Positions 368 to 14,548 of a DNA stretch of 35,696 nucleotides are shown here, piece after piece. The stretch lies in assembly GCA_020052095.1 (NCBI GenBank), contig JAGVPT010000126.1, positions 1 to 35,696 on the forward strand. The letters are read 5' to 3'. The number at the start of each line of letters is the position of its first letter. The stretch's first letter is position 1. A model generated the notes under the pieces. That model ran no database searches. It saw nothing but the letters and a program-made list of their open reading frames with translations, and was not told the DNA's origin. This stretch comes from Bacteroidota bacterium (GTDB taxonomy: Bacteria > Bacteroidota > Ignavibacteria > UBA10030 > UBA8401). The position numbers were made by a program, and so were the translations under genes.

Positions 368-1684
368 TTATTCCTTCTCCTTCGGTTTCCGCTTGGCAAA
401 GTCTTCGTCAAATTCTTTCCGCGTCTTCTCGATCAGATTCTCATTTTTCTTCATCTTGTCGGCCAGGCGCTCCTCGATCGTTGGCACGACTTCCGCCCTT
501 AGGAGAACAATGAGTTCCTTCTTGATATCGGTCTTCGTCTCTGAACCAAAAATGTAGCGCAGTCCAAAAATGTACCACGGCAGATCTTTGAGGAACGGAA
601 TTCCCGACCGCGAAGTTGATTGCTCGGTGGAATAGAGTCCTCCAATCACGGTCTCCTCTCCGTCGTTCAGCAGCAGGTACGTATCGATGGACGATTTGTC
701 GACGTTCGAGCCGCTTTGCTTGCTGTTCTCAACATGAATCTCTAGATTAATGAAACGAACTCCCTTGTCTTCATACAATATTGGCGTGACGCCAATAATA
801 ATTCCTGTCGCTATTTTTTGTTGGATAGTATTCCCCGCAAAATCTCTCGTTGTGACAAATATATCCGTGCCGATCTGGATATTCCCTTTTTTCCCTGAAG
901 AAACAATTATCTGCGGACTTGAGATGACGTCCCCGAGACCATTGCCCTGGAGAAACGAAATAAAACCGGTCAGATTGCTGAATCGAACATTGGGAACTAT
1001 TCTCGCTAAGAAAGCGTTCGGTTGCTGCGCTCCAGCACTCCCCGATCCGGACGCTGCCGTCGGATCTTCGAGGTTGCTTTTAAACTGACCGCCAAATTGC
1101 GTTGCTTTTCCCGCCGTAGTGTCGCCAAAATACAAATAGCTCCAGTTGATTCCTGTGTTAAGCGTTTTCGAAACGTCGACTGAAAAGAATACTGTCGAGA
1201 TTTTTATATCACGCGAAAGGAGCATCGCTTTTGATGCGGAATCCTTCGCAGCGGCCGCTCCCCCTCCTTTTGGTACGCCTCCCGTCAAAGAATCTGCCGG
1301 GTTGGTAATTTGAAAATATTCCTCCCTCTCTTCGTACCACAGTGAGTTTGCACGGAGCACAGTCTCGAATGCCTGCAACCAGTACATGTTCTCTATGTCG
1401 ACCCCTATTTCTTTTTTGTTGTATAAGGGATCTACGATGATCTTGTTCAGGTATTTCTTGCTGAAATCGGTGAAGAGCGACATTGATCTGTCAAACGGCA
1501 GCGTCTTCGACATTGAAATCAATTCTTCCGGCGAGACGTAATCGTTTAACAACACGCGCCTTTCACGATTTGATTGTGCCGTGGCCGAATACGATCCGAC
1601 AATCAACGCCGCGCAGAGATAGAGAAGGCCTGTTGCGGTAATCGACGACGTGACTCGTCGAGGATGAATACCCAGAATTTTCAT
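368..1684 (-). CDS. pilQ: type IV pilus secretin (PilQ-like, short)
   Basis: This is probably the outer-membrane secretin through which the pilus exits. The 438-residue product has an N-terminal hydrophobic signal ending near Ala-Thr-Ala-Gln (about 34-37). A secretin N0/STN-like domain follows (about 55-120), then a Gly/Ala-rich linker and the secretin barrel domain (about 150-400). Barrel hallmarks include the ISSPQIIVSSGKKG strand and GEETVIGGLYS followed by GIPFLKDLP. PilQ proteins are commonly about 700 residues with AMIN and N1 domains; this one is much shorter and lacks them. The charged Lys/Glu-rich tail is unusual. The gene starts 3 bases after the PilO-PilP stop, with AGGA just upstream, and is the last visible gene of the pilT-to-secretin operon. 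The family call is firm; assignment to PilQ rather than another secretin rests on context. Confidence 0.86.
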   Translation of the reverse strand: MKILGIHPRRVTSSITATGLLYLCAALIVGSYSATAQSNRERRVLLNDYVSPEELISMSKTLPFDRSMSLFTDFSKKYLNKIIVDPLYNKKEIGVDIENMYWLQAFETVLRANSLWYEEREEYFQITNPADSLTGGVPKGGGAAAAKDSASKAMLLSRDIKISTVFFSVDVSKTLNTGINWSYLYFGDTTAGKATQFGGQFKSNLEDPTAASGSGSAGAQQPNAFLARIVPNVRFSNLTGFISFLQGNGLGDVISSPQIIVSSGKKGNIQIGTDIFVTTRDFAGNTIQQKIATGIIIGVTPILYEDKGVRFINLEIHVENSKQSGSNVDKSSIDTYLLLNDGEETVIGGLYSTEQSTSRSGIPFLKDLPWYIFGLRYIFGSETKTDIKKELIVLLRAEVVPTIEERLADKMKKNENLIEKTRKEFDEDFAKRKPKEKE

Positions 1685-1687
1685 GGA

Positions 1688-2578
1688 TTAATTCCTCGTG
1701 GTTTTTTCTTTGAAGACAATCTTCTTACTCACTGTCTCGATGATGCCCCCGTTATTGAGCGTGAATTCGACGGTTCCTTCCTGCGGTTGGGTTGCCGTCA
1801 TCTTGCCGAGATATACTTCATCTCCCACCTGCAAGGTGATAAGTTTACCGGTTTGATCCATCACCAACGCTTTACCTGGCGCAACGGCCTTCACGTTAAT
1901 GGTCGCGATATCGAGAAGATTGCGGACATTCAACGGCGTCAGCCTCAGAATACTTGGAAGGAATGGATTCGAAGTGATAGGCTGGGGCACAGAGTCAGGC
2001 TTCATAACCCGCTTTCCCAAAGAGCGCTCGGGAGTATAAAACGCGTTCAATTCAATATCGTAGGCCAGTCCAACAGTCGGAAATTCCTGGTTGCCCTTCG
2101 TCTGTTCCTCACCGCGGAGACTGATGGTTGTAATCTTGTACAGCCGCCGCCCGTTCTCCAGAAGCCATATAAATCGGAAGATGTTCGGAAATTCCGCCGT
2201 GCCGGTCAATCTGTAGGTGTTATACCCATATTTCGGTGTGGCTCTCGTCCCGGTGTATTTCATGTTCAACCGCAGCGAACCGCTCTCGTCAATAATGTCG
2301 CTGAGATAGCCGTACGTCTGGGAAGAGATATCGAACTCTCCGATCTCTTTTGTTCTGTTGTTCCACCGGTGCACGGTCTCGCGCAGCTTGCCCTGCATTC
2401 CGGTGATCGCGCTTGTTTGTAACGTGTTGTCCTGCAATTTGCTTTCGATCTCTTTCGCCTCAGCTCTATACTTCTTTATCTTCCCCGGCTGATAAATGAA
2501 AGAGAAATATCCGCCAATGCCCACGACCAAAAACAGGATGATACCAAGTGCTATCGAATTTCGAATTTTATAGGACAC
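1688..2578 (-). CDS. pilO: pilus alignment protein, PilO-PilP fusion
   Basis: The 296-residue product probably bridges inner-membrane alignment proteins and the secretin. Residues 8-28 form one transmembrane helix. A coiled coil (about 30-80) and a PilO-like ferredoxin-fold region (about 85-180, ending LAYDIELNAFYTPE) follow. A Pro-rich linker with NPF (204-206) leads to a C-terminal beta domain (about 222-290) reading ALVMDQTGKLITLQVGDEV. This matches the PilP pattern of 'ALV.D..G....+.VGD'. PilO is normally about 200 residues and PilP is normally a separate lipoprotein, so this looks like a fusion. The start is GTG with an AAAGGG element 4-5 bases upstream; PilM-PilN ends 12 bases before. 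PilO identity is supported by position and topology, and the PilP part by the beta-domain motif only. Confidence 0.78.
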   Translation of the reverse strand: MSYKIRNSIALGIILFLVVGIGGYFSFIYQPGKIKKYRAEAKEIESKLQDNTLQTSAITGMQGKLRETVHRWNNRTKEIGEFDISSQTYGYLSDIIDESGSLRLNMKYTGTRATPKYGYNTYRLTGTAEFPNIFRFIWLLENGRRLYKITTISLRGEEQTKGNQEFPTVGLAYDIELNAFYTPERSLGKRVMKPDSVPQPITSNPFLPSILRLTPLNVRNLLDIATINVKAVAPGKALVMDQTGKLITLQVGDEVYLGKMTATQPQEGTVEFTLNNGGIIETVSKKIVFKEKTTRN

Positions 2579-2590
2579 AGATACCCTTTA

Positions 2591-4159
2591 TCAATCAGAA
2601 TCCAGCTTTTGAATGGTCAACACGAATTTGTACACAGTCTTCCCCCGTATCTCCTCCATTTCCACAGATTGCAATGTGGCCTTCTCAAACATGTTTGCGA
2701 TGCGCGGAATTCTGGGACGATACAGCGTGTACCCCGTCAGCACGATGGTGCTGTCGGCCGCCGTGAGAATATCCCGCACCCAAACCGAGTTAACGTCTTC
2801 AATGCTGTGCGTGAGGTGATAAAACACTTTGCTCCAGCGATTGTAATTCGGGACGATCAAATCGTACACCGCAAGCGCACTGATAAACTGTTGATTCTGC
2901 ACGGTCAGACTATCGAGGATAGTCTGTAAGCGTTCGTTTTCCGAAAGCTGAAGCTGCTTCTGCTGCAATTCCCTGTTCGCAATTCGCATTTCATCCGCCA
3001 AGTCGCCGACGCGGTTTGTGAAGAACAGCGTTCCGAGGAAAATCATCAGCATGAGAACGTATCCGTGCCATGCCAGCTTGAAGACTTTCTGCCCTTCTCG
3101 AAAACTTAGCGGCAGGAGGTCGACGGAATAGACGTTTGGGTTTTTCTGATCCAACGCCCGCATCGCCACGGAGATCGGGATTGCGTACTCCGAGATGATC
3201 TCTTCTACGTTTTCCTGTAATGCGCCGGTATCAAGATTTTTCGGAACGAGATACTCGATCGGGGCCTCGGCAAACTGCGGAGAAAGGAATTGTTTCAGCT
3301 CCAGTTTGTGGGCTTCGCCGGCAAGGAAAATCCTGTCGAGACGCATGATCCCAGCGCTGTCCTGCTCCAAAAGGATGCGTGAATACAGAGTGTTTTCAAT
3401 ATTGGCGGAGGTTCGACCTTCACTGATGACGGGCGCGAAGTGCAAGAAATCCTTCCCCTTCATGAAGATCAACCTGCTGAACTCGTTCCCCACATACATG
3501 ATGACCGAAATTTCCTCTGCGCCGATCTCATAATGCACGCGGACAAGATTCATCAGCGAGATGTCGGAAGTCTCGATGAAAGGTATCTGTGGTATGCGCT
3601 TGCCGATGAAATCTTTGATATTCTCCAGAATATCGATGAGGCTCAGTCCATCTTCACGGATAACAGAGAGTACCTGCCCTTCGGTCGCTTGAATGTACGC
3701 GACGGCGTCGGGATTTGGCTTTGACGCGCGAATTTTTGAGAGTTCTTCGACGAGCTTCTTCTTGAGTTTGCCGCCCGAAAGTCCAAAGGAATCCTCAAAC
3801 GTCTGGTAATAGACGCTCGGTTCTGAAATCGAATAGACAAATTGATATTTGTAGGAGGGGAATTCGGTGAGCAATCCTAGGAGAACACTGTTGTTCGTTT
3901 CTGCACCTTCAGTCTCCGCTGTTACACCCTCTTGGATCAGGGGGGTACTTGCGCCCGCATCGAGTAGATCAACGCCTTCCAGGCCAAGCCCGGCGTCTCC
4001 TGCCAACTGGCGCTCTTCGAGTTTCTTCACCAGGTTGACGGTCTTGAAATCTTCAAGATGGAATTGCTTGTTCTTCAGCCAAATATGAACAAACTTGACG
4101 TCTAGCCCGTCAACGAAAACGCCAAGCGCGGTTTTTCCTTCTCCTTTCGAATAGGGCAT
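2591..4159 (-). CDS. pilM: pilus alignment protein, PilM-PilN fusion
   Basis: The 522-residue product appears to join the cytoplasmic actin-like PilM and the membrane protein PilN. Residues about 10-340 look like PilM: ALGVFVDGLDVKFVHI opens the fold and the ISVIMYVGNEFSRLIF strand lies near 217-232. At 346-350 comes VDLLP, equivalent to the conserved N-terminal INLLP of PilN, which binds the PilM groove. A transmembrane helix (about 362-382), a coiled coil (385-430) and a periplasmic ferredoxin-like domain (about 435-520) complete the PilN half. In most pilus systems these are two genes. A low-complexity acidic insert (about 50-92) interrupts the PilM domain. No Shine-Dalgarno site is seen before the ATG. 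The gene follows the PilT gene after a 371-base gap containing repeats. Confidence 0.8.
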   Translation of the reverse strand: MPYSKGEGKTALGVFVDGLDVKFVHIWLKNKQFHLEDFKTVNLVKKLEERQLAGDAGLGLEGVDLLDAGASTPLIQEGVTAETEGAETNNSVLLGLLTEFPSYKYQFVYSISEPSVYYQTFEDSFGLSGGKLKKKLVEELSKIRASKPNPDAVAYIQATEGQVLSVIREDGLSLIDILENIKDFIGKRIPQIPFIETSDISLMNLVRVHYEIGAEEISVIMYVGNEFSRLIFMKGKDFLHFAPVISEGRTSANIENTLYSRILLEQDSAGIMRLDRIFLAGEAHKLELKQFLSPQFAEAPIEYLVPKNLDTGALQENVEEIISEYAIPISVAMRALDQKNPNVYSVDLLPLSFREGQKVFKLAWHGYVLMLMIFLGTLFFTNRVGDLADEMRIANRELQQKQLQLSENERLQTILDSLTVQNQQFISALAVYDLIVPNYNRWSKVFYHLTHSIEDVNSVWVRDILTAADSTIVLTGYTLYRPRIPRIANMFEKATLQSVEMEEIRGKTVYKFVLTIQKLDSD

Positions 4160-4530: not shown

Positions 4531-5808
4531 CTATGCCGTTGGTCCACCGGCTCCCAGCAATTGCTGCATGCGTTTCTTGTTGTTTGAATAGTTGATCGCG
4601 GACTCAAGAGAAATCTTCTTTTGGACAAATAACCTCTTCAAGTCTTGTTCCATCGTCGTCATCCCTTGGTCGCCAGATTCCTGGATCATCTGGTAAATCT
4701 CCCCCGTGTTGTTGTTCTTGATCGCCGAACGGACAGAAGGAGTCATGACCATGACCTCTCGAGCAAGTACTCTCTTTCCATCCAGGCTGGGAATAAGTTT
4801 CTGCGACATAACACATCGGCACACATCAGCCAGACGATTGCGAACTCGTTCCTGCTCCACCGGGGGTATTTCACCAATAATACGATCTATACTCTCCACT
4901 GCCGAGGCGGTGTGAAGTGTAGAGAATACCTTATGGCCGCTATCGGTAATTTCAAGCGACACCATGATTGTTTCCGGATCACGCATTTCACCGATCACAA
5001 TAATATCCGGATCTTGTCGCAGCGCCTGAATTGCTCCGTCTTTGAACGACGTTACATCACGTCCAACCTCGCGATGGCGGACAATGCATCTATCCGACTT
5101 GTGGACGAATTCGATCGGAGATGCAATCACGACGATATGCCCGTCAACCGTGTGATTGTTTAAATCAATCATCGCATCGAGCGTCGAACTCTTACCCGAG
5201 CCTGTAATACCTGTAACCAGCGTCAGCCCTTCTTTGGTGTGTGCAAGGCTGACTATTTTTGTGATATTTGGATGAAGCTCCAACGTTTTGTACGGACGAA
5301 TCGTCTGGTTGATCGCGCGCATGTTGAGCGCGACCTGATCCATGTCCAGGTACGCATCGGCGCGGAATCGGACCAACTTCTCGCCCTCCTGGATCATGTA
5401 CGAAAAATCCAGATTCTTGTTCTCGTACAATACCTGGCGCTGCCTCGCCATAAGTAGCGAGAGAATAAGAATATTAATTTCGTCCGAACCCAGTTTTTCG
5501 ATAGTCGGATCCGGTTTTTTAGAACCGAAAATCCGATACCAAATTAACCCCTGTCCGCCAAACCCTCCTAAATCAATATCTGATGCACCAATGGTGAACA
5601 TGCGCATCAGAAGTGAATTTACCAATTCTCGAAGGAGAGTCCTGCTCTCAATTGGAAGCTTTTCGACGAGATCGCCTATGAAAATCTGGCGTTCCAGTCC
5701 GAACACGCTTTCGGGAATTGTGGCGACCTGCTGCTTCAAGAACTCGCGCGCTTTTGTCTGAGCGTCATCAACTGGCGCCACCGTTTGCGCCGGGTTCAAC
5801 GTATCCAT
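4531..5808 (-). CDS. pilT: PilT-family pilus ATPase (probable retraction motor)
   Basis: The 425-residue product is a hexameric secretion ATPase of the PilT/PilU branch, expected to drive pilus retraction at the inner membrane. An N-terminal extension of about 70 residues precedes the usual GASDIDL motif (74-80). Walker A is GITGSGKS (200-207), Walker B DPDIIVIGEMRD (266-277) and the His box GHKVFSTLHT (291-300). The Asp box normally reads IEDPIE, but here it is IASPIE (228-233), so two acidic positions are Ala and Ser. There is no tetracysteine zinc motif, which distinguishes it from PilB. It heads the pilT-PilMN-PilOP-secretin unit, about 97 bases downstream of a strong promoter. The start ATG has no clear Shine-Dalgarno sequence. 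The family is certain; the retraction role is inferred. Confidence 0.9.
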   Translation of the reverse strand: MDTLNPAQTVAPVDDAQTKAREFLKQQVATIPESVFGLERQIFIGDLVEKLPIESRTLLRELVNSLLMRMFTIGASDIDLGGFGGQGLIWYRIFGSKKPDPTIEKLGSDEINILILSLLMARQRQVLYENKNLDFSYMIQEGEKLVRFRADAYLDMDQVALNMRAINQTIRPYKTLELHPNITKIVSLAHTKEGLTLVTGITGSGKSSTLDAMIDLNNHTVDGHIVVIASPIEFVHKSDRCIVRHREVGRDVTSFKDGAIQALRQDPDIIVIGEMRDPETIMVSLEITDSGHKVFSTLHTASAVESIDRIIGEIPPVEQERVRNRLADVCRCVMSQKLIPSLDGKRVLAREVMVMTPSVRSAIKNNNTGEIYQMIQESGDQGMTTMEQDLKRLFVQKKISLESAINYSNNKKRMQQLLGAGGPTA

Positions 5809-9128: not shown

Positions 9129-10916
9129 TTACTCCTCCTCGACCGTCGTGGAAATGACTTCTTCGAGACTGGTGCTGCCTTCTTTCATTCTTTCCATGCC
9201 GGATCTGCGCAGTGTCCACATACCGTCTTTCGCAGCCTGATCGCGGATTGAATTTTCGTCCACCTTATCGCCGGCATTTAAAATAATGTTCTTGATTGCT
9301 TTACTAAAGAAGAGCGCTTCGTGAATTGCGGCACGACCTTTATAGCCTCCGTTACATTTATCGCAACCGACTGCTTTATACATTTTATGAGCGTGGAGTT
9401 CCTCTTCGGTAAAACCAAACTTTATCAAGTCCGGCCAATCTTCCTCGGTGACGGGCTGCTTGCAAAGCTTACACAGTGTTCGAATAAGGCGCTGCGCCAC
9501 AATGATGTTGATAGCGTAGGCTATCAAGAATGGTTCGATGCCCATTTTGTACAAACGAGCAACGGCGCTCGGCGCGTCGTTCGTGTGCAACGTCGAAAAC
9601 ACCAAGTGACCGGTATTCGCAAGCTTGATCGCAGTCTCCGCCGTAATCTTATCGCGCATTTCACCGACGAGAACTATGTCGGGGTCATGTCGCAATATAC
9701 CTCTGATGGATTGTTCGAACGACATCTTCGGACCGATCTTCAACTGGCGCGCGCCTTTAATAATGTACTCAACCGGTTCTTCAATCGTCAAAACGTTTAC
9801 CGTCGGATCGATGACTTGGTACAACGCGGCAATCAGTGTAGTGGATTTTCCGGAACCCGTTGGTCCCGTAAGGATGATAATGCCCTGAGGCTTCTTGATT
9901 GCTCTATCGAAAAACGCGCGGGCCGGTCCCTGCAACCCGAGTTTGTTGAGATCGGTGATAACTTTGCGGTCATCGAGAACGCGGATAACGACGCTTTCAA
10001 ACTTATGCTTGAAATCTGTCGTTACAATCGGCATGATGGACACGCGGAATCGCAATTGGTGACCATCGATGACGCGTTGGATAAAACCGTCTTGCGTCGC
10101 CTCACGCTCAAAGCGGTCGACGTTTTTTGTTCTATCCTTTACGACTGCGAGAACTGCCTCCGGCATCGTGTTTTCCTGACGGTGCCACACCTGCAAATTA
10201 CCGTCAAGGCGGAACAAGAAGTTTGTCACATTTCCTTCGGAGGGGACGATGTGGATATCGCTCACATCCTTGCGCACGGCTTCAACGATGCATCCTTCAA
10301 TCAGATTGGCAAGAGCGCTCTTGCTGATTTCGGCTTCGAGCGCCTCTTCATCGACCGATACGTCGTCGGTGCCGGAGTCAACACTGATCTGATTGTCCTC
10401 GAGCAGTTTTAGAAATTCATTTTGCGGCGGGATGACCTGTTCGAGCAGGTTCTGCAATTCTTTCAGGCGGACGTACGTCACCTCATACTTCTTGGCATTG
10501 AAATTTCTTGCGATAAGCGGGATATTTCTGTCAGTCGGGTCTGCACAAATGATAATGAGCTTGTCCCCCTGCTTTTCGTCGAATTTCAGCGGGAGCATCT
10601 TCGACTGTATGAGCATATCCCGGTACGAGTCCTGCAATCCGTCGACGAACTTTCGGATGAATTCGATACGCCCCTTGTCGGTAACTTCGTCCGCAAGATA
10701 AATTTCCCGGAAGGCATAGAGGTTAGCAACTTCACGAAACACTGCGTCGTGATCGGCGTTGAATTCGGTCACAAGAATCTGGCCGAGGTTGCGCCTCTCC
10801 TTCTTATTGGTTTCTGATTCCTTGACTCTAAGTGATTTTTCCAGAGTCTCGTAATCGATGATTCCTTTTTTCAGAAGGGTGTAGCCAATCTTATCAGTGA
10901 TATCGACATCAGCCAT
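9129..10916 (-). CDS. pilB: type IV pilus extension ATPase PilB
   Basis: The 595-residue product is the assembly ATPase that powers pilin polymerisation. It has an N-terminal T2SSE-N/MshEN-like region (about 1-170), where c-di-GMP-type control is known in some homologues, then the RecA-like ATPase core. Visible motifs are Walker A GPTGSGKS (351-358), an intact Asp box TIEEPVE (377-383), Walker B DPDIVLVGEMRD (411-422) and the His box GHLVFSTLHT (436-445). The tetracysteine zinc site is Cys482, Cys485, Cys518 and Cys521. Length is near the family norm. A GGGAAGGGAA stretch precedes the ATG. It follows pilC with a repeat element in between, the reverse of the common pilB-pilC order. Confidence 0.95.
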   Translation of the reverse strand: MADVDITDKIGYTLLKKGIIDYETLEKSLRVKESETNKKERRNLGQILVTEFNADHDAVFREVANLYAFREIYLADEVTDKGRIEFIRKFVDGLQDSYRDMLIQSKMLPLKFDEKQGDKLIIICADPTDRNIPLIARNFNAKKYEVTYVRLKELQNLLEQVIPPQNEFLKLLEDNQISVDSGTDDVSVDEEALEAEISKSALANLIEGCIVEAVRKDVSDIHIVPSEGNVTNFLFRLDGNLQVWHRQENTMPEAVLAVVKDRTKNVDRFEREATQDGFIQRVIDGHQLRFRVSIMPIVTTDFKHKFESVVIRVLDDRKVITDLNKLGLQGPARAFFDRAIKKPQGIIILTGPTGSGKSTTLIAALYQVIDPTVNVLTIEEPVEYIIKGARQLKIGPKMSFEQSIRGILRHDPDIVLVGEMRDKITAETAIKLANTGHLVFSTLHTNDAPSAVARLYKMGIEPFLIAYAINIIVAQRLIRTLCKLCKQPVTEEDWPDLIKFGFTEEELHAHKMYKAVGCDKCNGGYKGRAAIHEALFFSKAIKNIILNAGDKVDENSIRDQAAKDGMWTLRRSGMERMKEGSTSLEEVISTTVEEE

Positions 10917-10951: not shown

Positions 10952-11114
10952 CTCATGTTACGCAGAGTTTAAAAGCCTTGCCACCAAGGCACGAAGACAC
11001 TAAGGCTCTTTAAGGAAAGCTGCATTTTGTAATGTCCATTAATAAAAAAGGTTGTTTTTCTTAGTGACTTCGTGACTTCGTGGCAATAATATTGGCGTTT
11101 TGCGTACCATCAGT
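10952..11114. repeat. TIR element copy C
   Basis: The ends read CTCATGTTACGCAGAG (left) and, on the minus strand, ACTGATGGTACGCAAAAC (right). The right terminus touches the pilC stop codon (TAA followed immediately by CTGATGG). The central block is nearly identical to copy B and lies in the same orientation. Inner motifs TTGCCACCAAGGCACGAAG and CTTCGTGACTTCGTGGCAA are inverted, so the element is a long imperfect palindrome. It fills almost all of the pilC-pilB gap. Confidence 0.78.
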
Positions 11115-12496
11115 TAGATGAAGGATCTCAACATGTGGACAACATGGATGAGAAGCCCTCCGCCGCCCGGAGGTTTTGGTTTGATCGTTGCCGTCTCGGA
11201 TGATACGAGGGTCAATCCCGTTAACACAATCATGATGATCATGGATATGACAAGCTGGATTAGGTCGATCGCATTGCGCATGCGATATCCGGTTTCTTTT
11301 TCATAGTAGTCGGCGAGCTGCAACGCGGAGTTCTTCACGTTGCCGGTTTCCGCCCCTGAATGGAATCGTGAGATGGCTGTTTTTGTGAACACACCGGTTG
11401 CCTCGAAGGCTTCGGTGATGTTCATTCCTTTTTCAACCATCAACGGAAGCGCAACCGTCCTGATTTGAGCTTCCATGTATTTGTTGCCGCACGCCTCCGC
11501 CGCCATCTTGATCACTTCAATATTCTCTCCCGAACCGCTGTAGAGGGCGTAAAAGACACGGCAGAAAATTTCAATGCTCGTTTTGTGCATCAGATCGCCG
11601 ATGGCCGGAATCTTCCACATGTACTGGTCGAGGATATATCTGCCCTTTTCTGTCGAGGCAAATCGAAGAAAGGCGACCAAAGGCACTGCGAATGAGAGAA
11701 CAATCCAAAGTATATTTTCAATGATAAAATCGCTCAGTTTCAAGGTTGTTCGTGTCATCGGCGGCAGTTCAATCTTGAATTTCACGAACAAACTTGCCGT
11801 GGCCGGAAAGATGTATGCGACGTAGTACCCGACTGCACCGAACAAGATCACCAGGGTGACCACCGGCATGATCAACGCGCTCTTCAGATTTTTTTTGAAT
11901 TCGGCGTTGCGTTCAAGAAATTTCGCGGTGCTTTCGTAAATTTCTGCCATGTTGCCGCTCTTCGATGCGAGGCCCAGCATGTGAGCGGCGAACTTGCCCA
12001 ATTCTTTTTCGTGCTTCACGAACGCCTTCTCGCTGTCCTTTCCTTGTTTCAGTTCCTGATTAATATCGCGGAGGCACTCCCGGAGATTCTTATTCTGGAT
12101 ATCGTTGATGAGAAGCTGCATCATTTCATTGAAAGGGAGTTTCTGCCTGATAAGATCGGAGCTGACGCGAACAAATGAGACGACATCCGTCGGGGGAACC
12201 GACCCTACCTTGTCAAATAGCTTCTTGCGGACATAGAGGACTTGATACCCCATTTTCAAAAGAGCGTCCGTAACTTCCTGCTTGGTGAACGCTTTTTGTT
12301 CGCCGTCAATTTTTTCGTCCCCCTTTTTTACTCTGTAGAGGAATGTGGAACGGACCTGCACTCCAGTCAATTTGAACTTTCGCTCTTGCGCCATCTGTTC
12401 GGCGCGTTGTTTGGCAAGCTTCAACGTGTCCGCATTGATAATTCCCTGGATCGGTTTCCCGGCCAATGAAAGTCCTTCAATTCGAAACTCTGCCAT
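11114..12496 (-). CDS. pilC: type IV pilus inner-membrane platform protein PilC
   Basis: The 460-residue product is the polytopic platform protein of the T2SSF family that couples PilB/PilT to pilin loading. An N-terminal cytoplasmic region (about 1-110) is followed by two T2SSF helical domains. Membrane segments lie at about 206-228 (LIMPVVTLVILFGAVGYYV), about 260-280 and near the C terminus (LIQLVISMIIMIVLTG). FHSGAETGN in the second domain is a typical T2SSF motif. The length is slightly above the usual 400-410 because of the N-terminal part. AAGGGA lies about 10 bases before the ATG. It is the first gene after the predicted promoter at 12576-12604. Confidence 0.93.
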   Translation of the reverse strand: MAEFRIEGLSLAGKPIQGIINADTLKLAKQRAEQMAQERKFKLTGVQVRSTFLYRVKKGDEKIDGEQKAFTKQEVTDALLKMGYQVLYVRKKLFDKVGSVPPTDVVSFVRVSSDLIRQKLPFNEMMQLLINDIQNKNLRECLRDINQELKQGKDSEKAFVKHEKELGKFAAHMLGLASKSGNMAEIYESTAKFLERNAEFKKNLKSALIMPVVTLVILFGAVGYYVAYIFPATASLFVKFKIELPPMTRTTLKLSDFIIENILWIVLSFAVPLVAFLRFASTEKGRYILDQYMWKIPAIGDLMHKTSIEIFCRVFYALYSGSGENIEVIKMAAEACGNKYMEAQIRTVALPLMVEKGMNITEAFEATGVFTKTAISRFHSGAETGNVKNSALQLADYYEKETGYRMRNAIDLIQLVISMIIMIVLTGLTLVSSETATIKPKPPGGGGLLIHVVHMLRSFI

Positions 12497-12998: not shown

Positions 12999-13412
12999 CT
13001 AATTGACTTTCGAAAGCGTTTGGGTCTGGATGGTCACTGTCAGATCGTACTCCGGGTACGTCCCGTCGGGCATCGTGACCTTACCGACACCGTGGAGGAC
13101 GACTTGAGTTGAAGTTCCGTCTGTCTTGATCGTATACGTGCCGTTTGCGTTATTGGTATATTTGACTCCGGCCAGCATACCGATGCCGCGGTCGTCCGCA
13201 GTAAGCCCAACAAAGGACTTGCTACCTCCGCCCATGGTCATAGGCCTGGAGTAGTAATGTTGTGCTTTTGATCCCAGCAATTTCAAATCAGCAATCACCA
13301 AAACCCGATTATGATCAACGGCATTATCCTGAAACATTCCGATGCCGACCACTACGGCGACGCCGATGATAATCAACCCCAGTATGATCAGAAGAAATTG
13401 CTGCTGTCCCAT
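12999..13412 (-). CDS. major-pilin-like protein, paralogue 1
   Basis: The 137-residue product starts MGQQQFLLIILGLIIIGVAV, so the hydrophobic helix starts within six residues of the N terminus. A polar helix (about 28-60: MFQDNAVDHNRVLVIADL) and a small Gly-rich beta head domain with NNANGTYTIKT and HGVGK motifs follow. There is no cysteine pair, no GFTLIE leader and no Glu5. It is the most diverged of three equally long paralogues (for example KLLGSKAQHYYSRP against TTLAAKAQQYYAKP). The start has no Shine-Dalgarno sequence, but a promoter at 13469-13497 could express it alone. It is a pilin by topology, repetition and proximity to pilC-pilB; structural confirmation is lacking. Confidence 0.75.
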   Translation of the reverse strand: MGQQQFLLIILGLIIIGVAVVVGIGMFQDNAVDHNRVLVIADLKLLGSKAQHYYSRPMTMGGGSKSFVGLTADDRGIGMLAGVKYTNNANGTYTIKTDGTSTQVVLHGVGKVTMPDGTYPEYDLTVTIQTQTLSKVN

Positions 13413-13657: not shown

Positions 13658-14071
13658 TTAGTTGACCTTCGTTGGTAATTGTGTCTGGAAAGTCACCGTC
13701 ATATCGTATGTCGGGAATGTCCCATCGGTCAGCGCAGTCTTGCCTACTCCACGAAAAACAAGTGTGGTGGCTGTGCCTGCTGTCTTGATCGTATACGTGC
13801 CATTAGCATTGTTCGTGAATGCCGATGATGCAAGCAATCCTAATCCAACCGAATCAGCACTCAAACCTACGAACGAATTGCCACCGCCACCCAGTGTGGT
13901 CGGCTTGGCATAGTATTGCTGACCTTTTGCCGCAAGCGTGGTTAAGTCAGAGATCACCGCACTTCGGTTTTGGTCAACCGCATTGTCCTGGAACATCGTG
14001 ATACCGACCGCTACTGCTATACCGACGATGATCACGCCCAAGATGATTAAAAGAAGCTGTTGCTGTCCCAT
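13658..14071 (-). CDS. major-pilin-like protein, paralogue 2
   Basis: The 137-residue product (MGQQQLLLIILGVIIVGIAV...) is very close to paralogue 3 over the first 35 residues and has the same head-domain layout (LGGGGNSF, NNANGTYTIKT, RGVGK, DGTFP). As in its sisters, Met-Gly is followed at once by the hydrophobic helix, and there is no cysteine or Glu5. It has by far the best ribosome-binding site of the array: AGGAGG at 14082-14077, five bases before the ATG. It is therefore likely the most efficiently translated and a candidate for the main subunit. It lies 63 bases after paralogue 3, with which it is probably co-transcribed. Confidence 0.78.
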   Translation of the reverse strand: MGQQQLLLIILGVIIVGIAVAVGITMFQDNAVDQNRSAVISDLTTLAAKGQQYYAKPTTLGGGGNSFVGLSADSVGLGLLASSAFTNNANGTYTIKTAGTATTLVFRGVGKTALTDGTFPTYDMTVTFQTQLPTKVN

Positions 14072-14134: not shown

Positions 14135-14548
14135 TTATTTAATCTTATTTGGCGTTTGTGTTTGAGTTGTCACTGTCATATCATACTCGGGGAAGTTTGT
14201 TGCATCTATTGCAACCTTACCAACACCGTGCAACACAACTTGTGTTGAAGTTCCCGCTGTCTTAATCGTATATGTACCATTCGCGTTGTTTGTAAATGCA
14301 GTAGAAGCCAAGATTCCAAGACTTGTAGAATCAGTCGAAAGACCTGCAAACGATTTGCCGCCGCCGCCAAGACTTACTGGCTTTGCATAGTACTGCTGTG
14401 CCTTCGCTGCCAACGTTGTCAAGTCGCCAATCACGGCGGTGCGGTTTTGATCCACAGCATTATCCTGGAACATCGTGATTCCGACGACTACAGCTACACC
14501 AACTATGATGACTCCAAGAATTATCAGAAGAAGCTGCTGTTGGCCCAT
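14135..14548 (-). CDS. major-pilin-like protein, paralogue 3 (first in the array)
   Basis: The 137-residue product (MGQQQLLLIILGVIIVGVAV...) has the N-terminal helix, the MFQDNAVDQNR linker and a Gly-rich head (LGGGGKSF, NNANGTYTIKT, HGVGK). Its C terminus ends NKIK, whereas the sisters end KVN. The segment TSTQVVLHGVGKV is shared with paralogue 1 while the N-terminal half is closest to paralogue 2. Such a mosaic could reflect gene conversion. No Shine-Dalgarno sequence is apparent. It is the promoter-proximal gene, with a possible sigma-54 element about 85 bases upstream. Pilin identity is inferred as for paralogues 1 and 2. Confidence 0.77.
   Translation of the reverse strand: MGQQQLLLIILGVIIVGVAVVVGITMFQDNAVDQNRTAVIGDLTTLAAKAQQYYAKPVSLGGGGKSFAGLSTDSTSLGILASTAFTNNANGTYTIKTAGTSTQVVLHGVGKVAIDATNFPEYDMTVTTQTQTPNKIK

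Follow-up and report, generated by a model that had tools for sequence, protein, structure and literature searches.

Joined PilM-like and PilN domains, with a neighbouring PilO–PilP-type fusion, in PilT-containing pilus loci of Bacteroidota

Can the inner base of a retractile pilus be built from two chains instead of four? The question is raised by a 35,696-nucleotide (nt) stretch of DNA from a Bacteroidota bacterium (Ignavibacteria; UBA10030; assembly GCA_020052095.1, contig JAGVPT010000126.1), which is called the window throughout. One of its genes encodes a PilM-like and a PilN domain in a single chain, and the next gene seems to join PilO to a PilP-like domain. Judging from sequence profiles and predicted folds, we consider it probable (roughly 0.8) that the two proteins, PilM–PilN and PilO–PilP, form the inner base of a PilT-containing machine resembling a type IVa pilus (T4aP), in place of four separate chains.

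PilM-like and PilN domains in a single frame

The frame at positions 2591-4159 sits on the minus strand, and the plus-strand reading is interrupted by stops throughout (Table 1). Because single-sequence searches fail for both halves of the protein, their identification needs family profiles and folds; the wide fusion alignment comprises 69 chosen members and the alignment of the neighbouring protein 62. On sequence similarity the C-terminal half is a PilN, with an NLLP-type peptide, a predicted transmembrane helix, a coiled coil and a ferredoxin-like domain. A family profile of 59 members matches the PilN of 3jc8, which we take to be the M. xanthus structure, with an E-value of 2.7e-8, and the wider 69-member profile reaches E=1.7e-10 in an alignment that opens at the NLLP motif of both proteins. 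The Pfam PilN model is matched by 17 of the 69 members (best E-value 1.3e-5). In hhalign the wider C-half profile aligns to E. coli HofN at 58.5% from INFLP onward (HofN begins MNPPINFLP); the comparison of the fusion family with the single HofN sequence, prior to this wider profile, was weak. The proline of the peptide (P350) is conserved in 66/69 members, while the first residue of the core motif is mostly N (39 members), otherwise D (14), S (13) or another residue (3); W442 and G476 are found in 69/69 and W460 in 68/69. Downstream of VDLLP there is one hydrophobic segment, and AlphaFold2 predicts a helix from aa 351 to 433 followed by an alpha-beta-beta-alpha-beta-beta domain.

The N-terminal half is PilM-like by its fold, as far as a low-confidence model allows. 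The PDB ranks 1 to 10 of Foldseek are all PilM chains (E-values 3.1e-8 to 1.8e-6; 3jc8_Ma is counted as PilM by its chain letter), followed by Ppx/GppA and FtsA. A second line of evidence is provided by a family of standalone PilM-like proteins of about 303 amino acids (aa) from the same group of genomes (33 sequences, namely 32 and a repeat of L096). With this family hhalign aligns the N-terminal half at 97.8% (E-value 8.8e-13, 304 columns), versus 1.1% with FtsA (11 sequences), 0.3% with MreB (3) and 2.0% with one other actin-fold protein; the identities of four FtsA and three MreB sequences were checked. The C-terminal half scores 0.1% against the standalone family. The sole Pfam family of the standalone protein at E<=0.001 is PilM_2, above the cut-off in 6/6 tested proteins, and 2/2 match the NCBIfam family pilM (E-values 7.3e-8 and 7.5e-13) under the cut-off of that family. 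Since PilM_2 also takes FtsA and MreB, the link to the standalone family is indicative of actin-fold kinship, and of PilM only as the best and sole family.

A preliminary description of this DNA, made from the sequence alone, had proposed that one chain holds both a PilM-like and a PilN-like part and that an NLLP-type peptide lies where they meet. The PilN profile (E=1.7e-10 to the 3jc8 chain for the C-terminal half), the PilM fold matches and the single frame bear out the former, and the conserved P350 bears out the latter. The proposed profile comparison of the N-terminal half led to the standalone family, but yielded zero direct matches to a PilM family, and the structural model returned PilM in the Foldseek top ten, but is itself weak and favours FtsA in VIA-align.

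About 10 residues separate the PilM fold from the NLLP motif, judging by a predicted helix that ends at 336 and by a weak alignment with the last part of 2ych PilM. A tether of fixed length was also considered: the 25 residues from A326 to P350 are constant in 59/69 members, but 292/497 windows of the same size are equally constant, and the claim was dropped. An in-frame ATG at residues 338-347, a candidate internal start for a free PilN, occurs in 5/69 members, and an ATG, GTG or TTG at 328-347 in 36/69, with an accompanying Shine-Dalgarno-like 4-mer in 1/69; little in the sequences suggests that PilN is synthesised separately from an internal start. Because both domains lie in one chain, their ratio should be 1:1, provided that the chain is uncleaved.

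Recurrence of the fusion and its association with PilT

The search of related genomes proposed in the preliminary description retrieved the same fusion in 92 of 120 relatives (53/73 genera; own genome counted), and one match covers both halves in 86 of these 92. The six remaining genomes contain a frameshift (G005), undetermined bases (G073), two pieces at contig ends (G031, G061, G090) or one short piece (G077). In a phylum-wide sample the fusion was matched in 55/148 genomes (36/82 genera; own genome counted) as long single frames, and the lowest identity to the window protein in the wide alignment is 17%. Eight metagenome-assembled genome records labelled Bacteroidota/Bacteroidetes or Ignavibacteria(e) match as well, seven of the eight proteins being identical to sampled relatives and hence non-independent. 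Long distant members of 735-756 aa are encoded in L126, L140 and L155. A match to the SPOR domain is present in 3/69 fusion members (best E-value 3.6e-6).

The gene order around the fusion was compared for 108 distinct proteins, from which identical copies and frames below 1300 nt had been dropped and which include the frameshifted piece L018; adjacency was defined by gaps of less than 310 nt (PilO–PilP), 400 nt (PilT) or 700-1200 nt (secretin). Among the loci with enough sequence, the gene for PilO–PilP is next to the fusion in 103/103, the secretin gene follows in 98/98, and a PilT gene is located at most 400 nt upstream in 100/102. The two exceptions (L051 and L053, in G107 and G116) are second loci; each of the two genomes has a fuller locus as well. 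Their order is pilin, pilM-N, pilO-P, secretin and pseudopilin-like genes, and PilB, PilC and PilT are absent from the available stretch; perhaps these second loci share the motors of the main locus.

The association with the retraction motor extends to whole genomes. The 55 fusion-bearing genomes of the 148 coincide exactly with the set of genomes that have a strong PilT match (at least 303 bits). Of these 55 matches 26 lie above the cut-off and 29 at 303-319 bits, and the next best score in the sample is 181 bits. The fusion was unmatched in genomes with a distant motor match only (for example G128, G132, G198, G211 and G248; 168-181 bits), so the Cytophaga type II secretion system (T2SS) may be a different one.

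The pilus gene cluster and the PilO–PilP neighbour

The minus-strand cluster of the window reads, in its gene order, three pilin-like genes, PilC, PilB, pseudopilin-like genes, PilT, pilM-N, pilO-P and secretin. It thereby provides the components of a T4aP machine, i.e. PilB, PilC, PilT, a secretin and the domains of PilM, PilN, PilO and PilP. Mature major pilins of the type IVa class are characterised by cleavage between Gly and Phe and by a Glu at position five. The pilin-like open reading frames (ORFs) of the window begin with MGQQQ(L/F)LLI and are devoid of a Glu at the expected fifth place, and the same N-terminus is found in distant loci.

Table 1. Features of the window, with positions counted from its first nucleotide
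Feature	Position	Strand	Basis
pilM-pilN fusion gene, 522 aa	2591..4159	minus	single ORF, ATG start
PilM-like actin-fold domain, aa 8-340	3140..4138	minus	Foldseek top ten; hhalign 97.8%
VDLLP, INLLP-type peptide of PilN, aa 346-350	3110..3124	minus	conserved P350, profile alignments
Predicted transmembrane segment, aa 362-380	3020..3076	minus	Kyte-Doolittle peak 1.83
Predicted long helix / coiled coil, aa 381-433, periplasmic by homology	2861..3019	minus	AlphaFold2 secondary structure; PilN profile match
PilN ferredoxin-like domain, aa 442-516	2612..2836	minus	fold from AlphaFold2 secondary structure; sequence profile
pilO-pilP fusion gene, 296 aa, GTG start 12 nt past the pilM-pilN stop	1688..2578	minus	profile, fold, synteny
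PilO ferredoxin-like domain, aa 84-183	2030..2329	minus	2rjz fold match; 3jc8 PilO profile match
PilP / GspC-HR-like beta domain, aa 213-287	1718..1942	minus	fold match
Secretin (PilQ position)	368..1684	minus	Pfam Secretin, E 3.9e-28
PilT-family retraction ATPase	4531..5808	minus	TIGR01420, 322.7 bits, above cut-off 319.1
PilB-type extension ATPase	9129..10916	minus	TIGR02538, E 1.8e-122, 409.8 bits, under cut-off 675.65
PilC-type platform protein	11114..12496	minus	Pfam T2SSF, E 1e-30; under NCBIfam cut-off
Three tandem 137-aa pilin-like genes	12999-13412, 13658-14071, 14135-14548	minus	ORFs; similar ORFs in related loci

The gene next to the fusion had been overlooked in the preliminary description. 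Going by its predicted structure, it is a second fusion, of PilO with a PilP-like domain. The PilO domain superimposes on the PilO 2rjz with a Z-score of 12.0 and a root-mean-square deviation (rmsd) of 2.3 over 92 residues, and the profile of the 62 neighbours matches the PilO of 3jc8 with an E-value of 5.3e-6. The Pfam PilO model is matched by 12/62 neighbours (best E-value 2.9e-6), with the window's own protein unmatched. The C-terminal domain resembles the PilP 2y4y (Z 8.2, rmsd 2.3 over 71) and the GspC homology region (HR) 3oss (Z 8.5, rmsd 1.6 over 58). The underlying model has a mean predicted local distance difference test (pLDDT) score of 64.5, and blocks of 10 residues at 221-290 range between 68 and 89. 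In hhalign both halves were unmatched by HofO, HofP, GspM and GspC of K-12 (0.1-0.4%). The protein also has a fold match to Amuc_1100 (Z 10.8).

Weighing the evidence

Several results weigh against a T4aP-like base built from these two fusions. The assignment of the PilM half draws on an AlphaFold2 model of low quality (nine input sequences, mean pLDDT 54.1, predicted template modelling score 0.33), and VIA-align places FtsA (Z 11.7) above PilM (Z 9.2), a result that supports the superfamily rather than PilM in particular. The profile of the fusion family reaches the PilM of 2ych with an E-value of 0.29 only, and searches of Pfam, NCBIfam and the PDB with family profiles left PilM unmatched at significance. 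As a single sequence the window protein matched neither PilM, PilN nor GspL (T2SSL) in Pfam and NCBIfam, and nothing meaningful among the PDB sequences for either half. The Pfam PilN model, searched singly, has zero matches anywhere in the genome of the window. PilM_2 (PF11104) is unmatched in the window protein and does not figure in the 25 families (of 39) listed for the 69 members. FtsA and MreB from these genomes also exceed its cut-off (7/7), for which reason a score above it was dropped as proof of PilM; E. coli HofM, for its part, scores 14 bits against the cut-off of 27. The FtsA and MreB controls of hhalign are small sets and thus weaker targets. For the PilP domain the fold is the sole basis, as its sequence profile gave one chance-level match only, and its Z-score barely exceeds values that may be commonplace. 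The one pilin-like protein of the three that was scanned (12999-13412) remained unmatched in Pfam and NCBIfam at E<=0.01. Finally, pairwise distances of the fusion correlate with those of PilT (r 0.933), PilO–PilP (0.917) and the secretin (0.805; 71 loci, with 0/500 shuffles reaching each value), but such correlated distances are also expected from shared genome ancestry alone.

The strongest competitor is a protein of the T2SS. The fusion could be the GspL of this system, or of the so-called Bacteroidetes T2SS, in which a single PilM–PilN chain serves a non-retractile pseudopilus. The domain order is the same, PulL has been described as a PilM–PilN fusion (PMC10191384), and Denise et al. (2019; PMC6668835) report that the T2SS of Bacteroidetes group with T4aP. 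Moreover, sequence tests cannot separate GspL from PilM, as hhalign of the fusion family misses the single K-12 sequences of GspL (0.1-0.3%) and HofM alike. PilM fills the ten best Foldseek ranks and GspL chains are absent among the best 50 rows of Foldseek and of VIA-align, which excludes nothing. What speaks against this alternative is the motor: the T2SS is reported to have arisen upon the loss of PilT (PMC10191384), whereas a PilT-family ATPase is encoded just upstream in 100/102 loci and all 55 fusion genomes of the 148 have a strong PilT match. The loci thus share with the T2SS a single chain of PilM-like and PilN-like parts, but not a system devoid of PilT, and they conserve an NLLP-type motif at the junction. 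We therefore regard a GspL of the T2SS as unlikely.

Another reading concerns the N-terminal half, which could be a degenerate FtsA-like or other actin fold, while the working PilM would be the separate 303-aa protein (L091:2585-3496). In addition to the ranking by VIA-align and the breadth of PilM_2, this possibility draws on the presence of the standalone protein in 88/92 fusion-bearing relatives and on residue 222 (window 3494-3496). In a weak alignment this residue is paired with the DIG-motif Asp in the PilM of 2ych, an Asp that is replaced in 68/69 fusion proteins (Tyr 39, Gln 10, His 8, Arg 8 and Asp 1 of 69); nucleotide binding may accordingly have been lost or altered. The 97.8% alignment to the standalone family compared with 1.1% for FtsA and the ten PilM chains at the top of Foldseek argue to the contrary. 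The standalone gene is also found in 15/28 relatives without the fusion (this number and the 88/92 are hand counts, in which the fusion status of 8 genomes is inferred), and in six loci it is located away from the pilus genes, near coaD-like, housekeeping-like genes that were named by eye. Taken together, an N-terminal half of another actin-fold type is improbable.

The standalone gene was observed in 103/120 relatives, among them L091 (G000 contig C20), L094, L095 and L096. Its surroundings, again read by eye, are grpE, dnaJ, one or two small genes, the PilM-like gene, rsmD and coaD. The small neighbour in L091 contains a helix-hairpin-helix domain (HHH_3, E-value 1e-20) and is presumably ComEA-like; the role of the standalone protein is perhaps in DNA uptake.

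The third explanation, an assembly or sequencing error that joined two genes in this incomplete assembly of 281 contigs, a doubt already raised in the preliminary description, is refuted by independent genomes, namely by the matches across both halves in 86/92 relatives and the long single frames throughout the phylum.

Proposed architecture and possible implications for motor switching

The domain identities, the single frame, the gene order and the co-occurrence with PilT were established by sequence or fold comparison, and the behaviour of homologues suggests how such a base might work. PilM–PilN would be one inner-membrane protein in which a short tether connects a cytoplasmic PilM-like domain to the NLLP peptide, followed by a transmembrane helix, a coiled coil and a periplasmic PilN domain. 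By analogy with homologues, the PilM domain would form a cytoplasmic ring that holds PilB or PilT, and the NLLP peptide would dock in the PilM groove, either within the same chain or on a neighbouring one. In the periplasm PilN is expected to pair with PilO, while the PilP domain would contact the secretin. The ring subunit would hence be built into PilN and the secretin contact into PilO, and PilM would be tied to the membrane and inseparable from PilN in action. If PilM can neither leave the membrane nor act without PilN, the switch between extension and retraction would be set at the motor and not by binding and release of PilM and PilN. In this sense the fusion may alter motor control, as the preliminary description had suggested for the alignment complex.

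These loci provide a natural test of motor switching, as PilM and PilN are always joined and yet PilT is present: if such pili extend and retract normally, PilN need not be released from PilM for motors to be exchanged. The two fusions also state ratios of 1:1 for PilM to PilN and for PilO to PilP directly. A PilO–PilP fusion has been used before as an argument about stoichiometry (PMC3169554), while a purified T2SS contained about twice as much PulC as PulL and PulM (PMC6882859). In practical terms, the family profiles permit the annotation of diverged genes that Pfam and NCBIfam missed in the window, and a match to PilM_2 alone is insufficient to call a PilM.

Comparison with known systems

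The preliminary description had implied that a PilM–PilN fusion is rarer than it proves to be, since the same fusion has been published for GspL/PulL, for Clostridioides difficile and for most Campylobacterota type IV pilus clusters. GspL/PulL of the T2SS shares with our protein the PilM-like and PilN-like parts in one chain, and the PilMN complex has been called the orthologue of GspL (PMC4471445). The present loci differ by the accompanying PilT gene, by the NLLP-type peptide at the junction and by a PilP-like domain on PilO, in contrast to the separate GspC of the T2SS. The PilM–PilN fusion of C. difficile (PMC6916266), likened here by description and not by sequence, belongs to a monoderm without outer-membrane components. 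The same kind of likeness applies to the Campylobacterota, whose clusters have the order pilMNOPQ with pilM and pilN fused in most of them (PMC11870540); the available passages of that account contain no mention of a PilO–PilP fusion. Such a fusion has been described for Pseudomonas putida (Q88CU9; PMC3169554), again comparable by description and not by sequence, whereas in our loci PilO–PilP is joined by a PilM–PilN fusion and recurs across the phylum sample. The organisms of 3jc8, 5eoy and 2ych have the same domains on four separate chains in place of the two found here; PilN and PilO are shared with them by profile, PilM and PilP by fold.

A further relative might be hidden in the Amuc_1101 family NF045709 (608 positions, named PilM-like), the one NCBIfam family that fusion members match often (48/69, best E-value 1.3e-9). 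Where members were scanned one by one, the aligned stretch starts close to the end of the PilM domain and continues over the transmembrane segment and the coil. Because the matches extend past the PilM domain, the family is probably a PilM–PilN fusion too, and its name would conceal such a fusion in Akkermansia and relatives. Ten members scanned singly score at most 29.1 bits, however, far under the cut-off of 650 bits. Amuc_1101 of the Akkermansia MUL2 locus was earlier predicted to be FtsA (PMC5332112) and has been called a PilM protein; Amuc_1100 belongs to the same locus (PMC13174399). Rather speculatively, a large part of this diderm phylum might operate a retractile pilus on a permanently pre-assembled base of PilM–PilN and PilO–PilP, in which the choice between PilB and PilT is independent of PilM–PilN release; the fused form might then be an old one, perhaps common to this phylum and the verrucomicrobial Amuc_1101 family, rather than a late arrival.

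Among the papers listed in a search of the open-licence literature, with most subscription papers outside its range, none describes this family or a machine that combines the two fusions. Each type of fusion is already known singly from other systems; in the sampled phylum both recur together, and with PilT.
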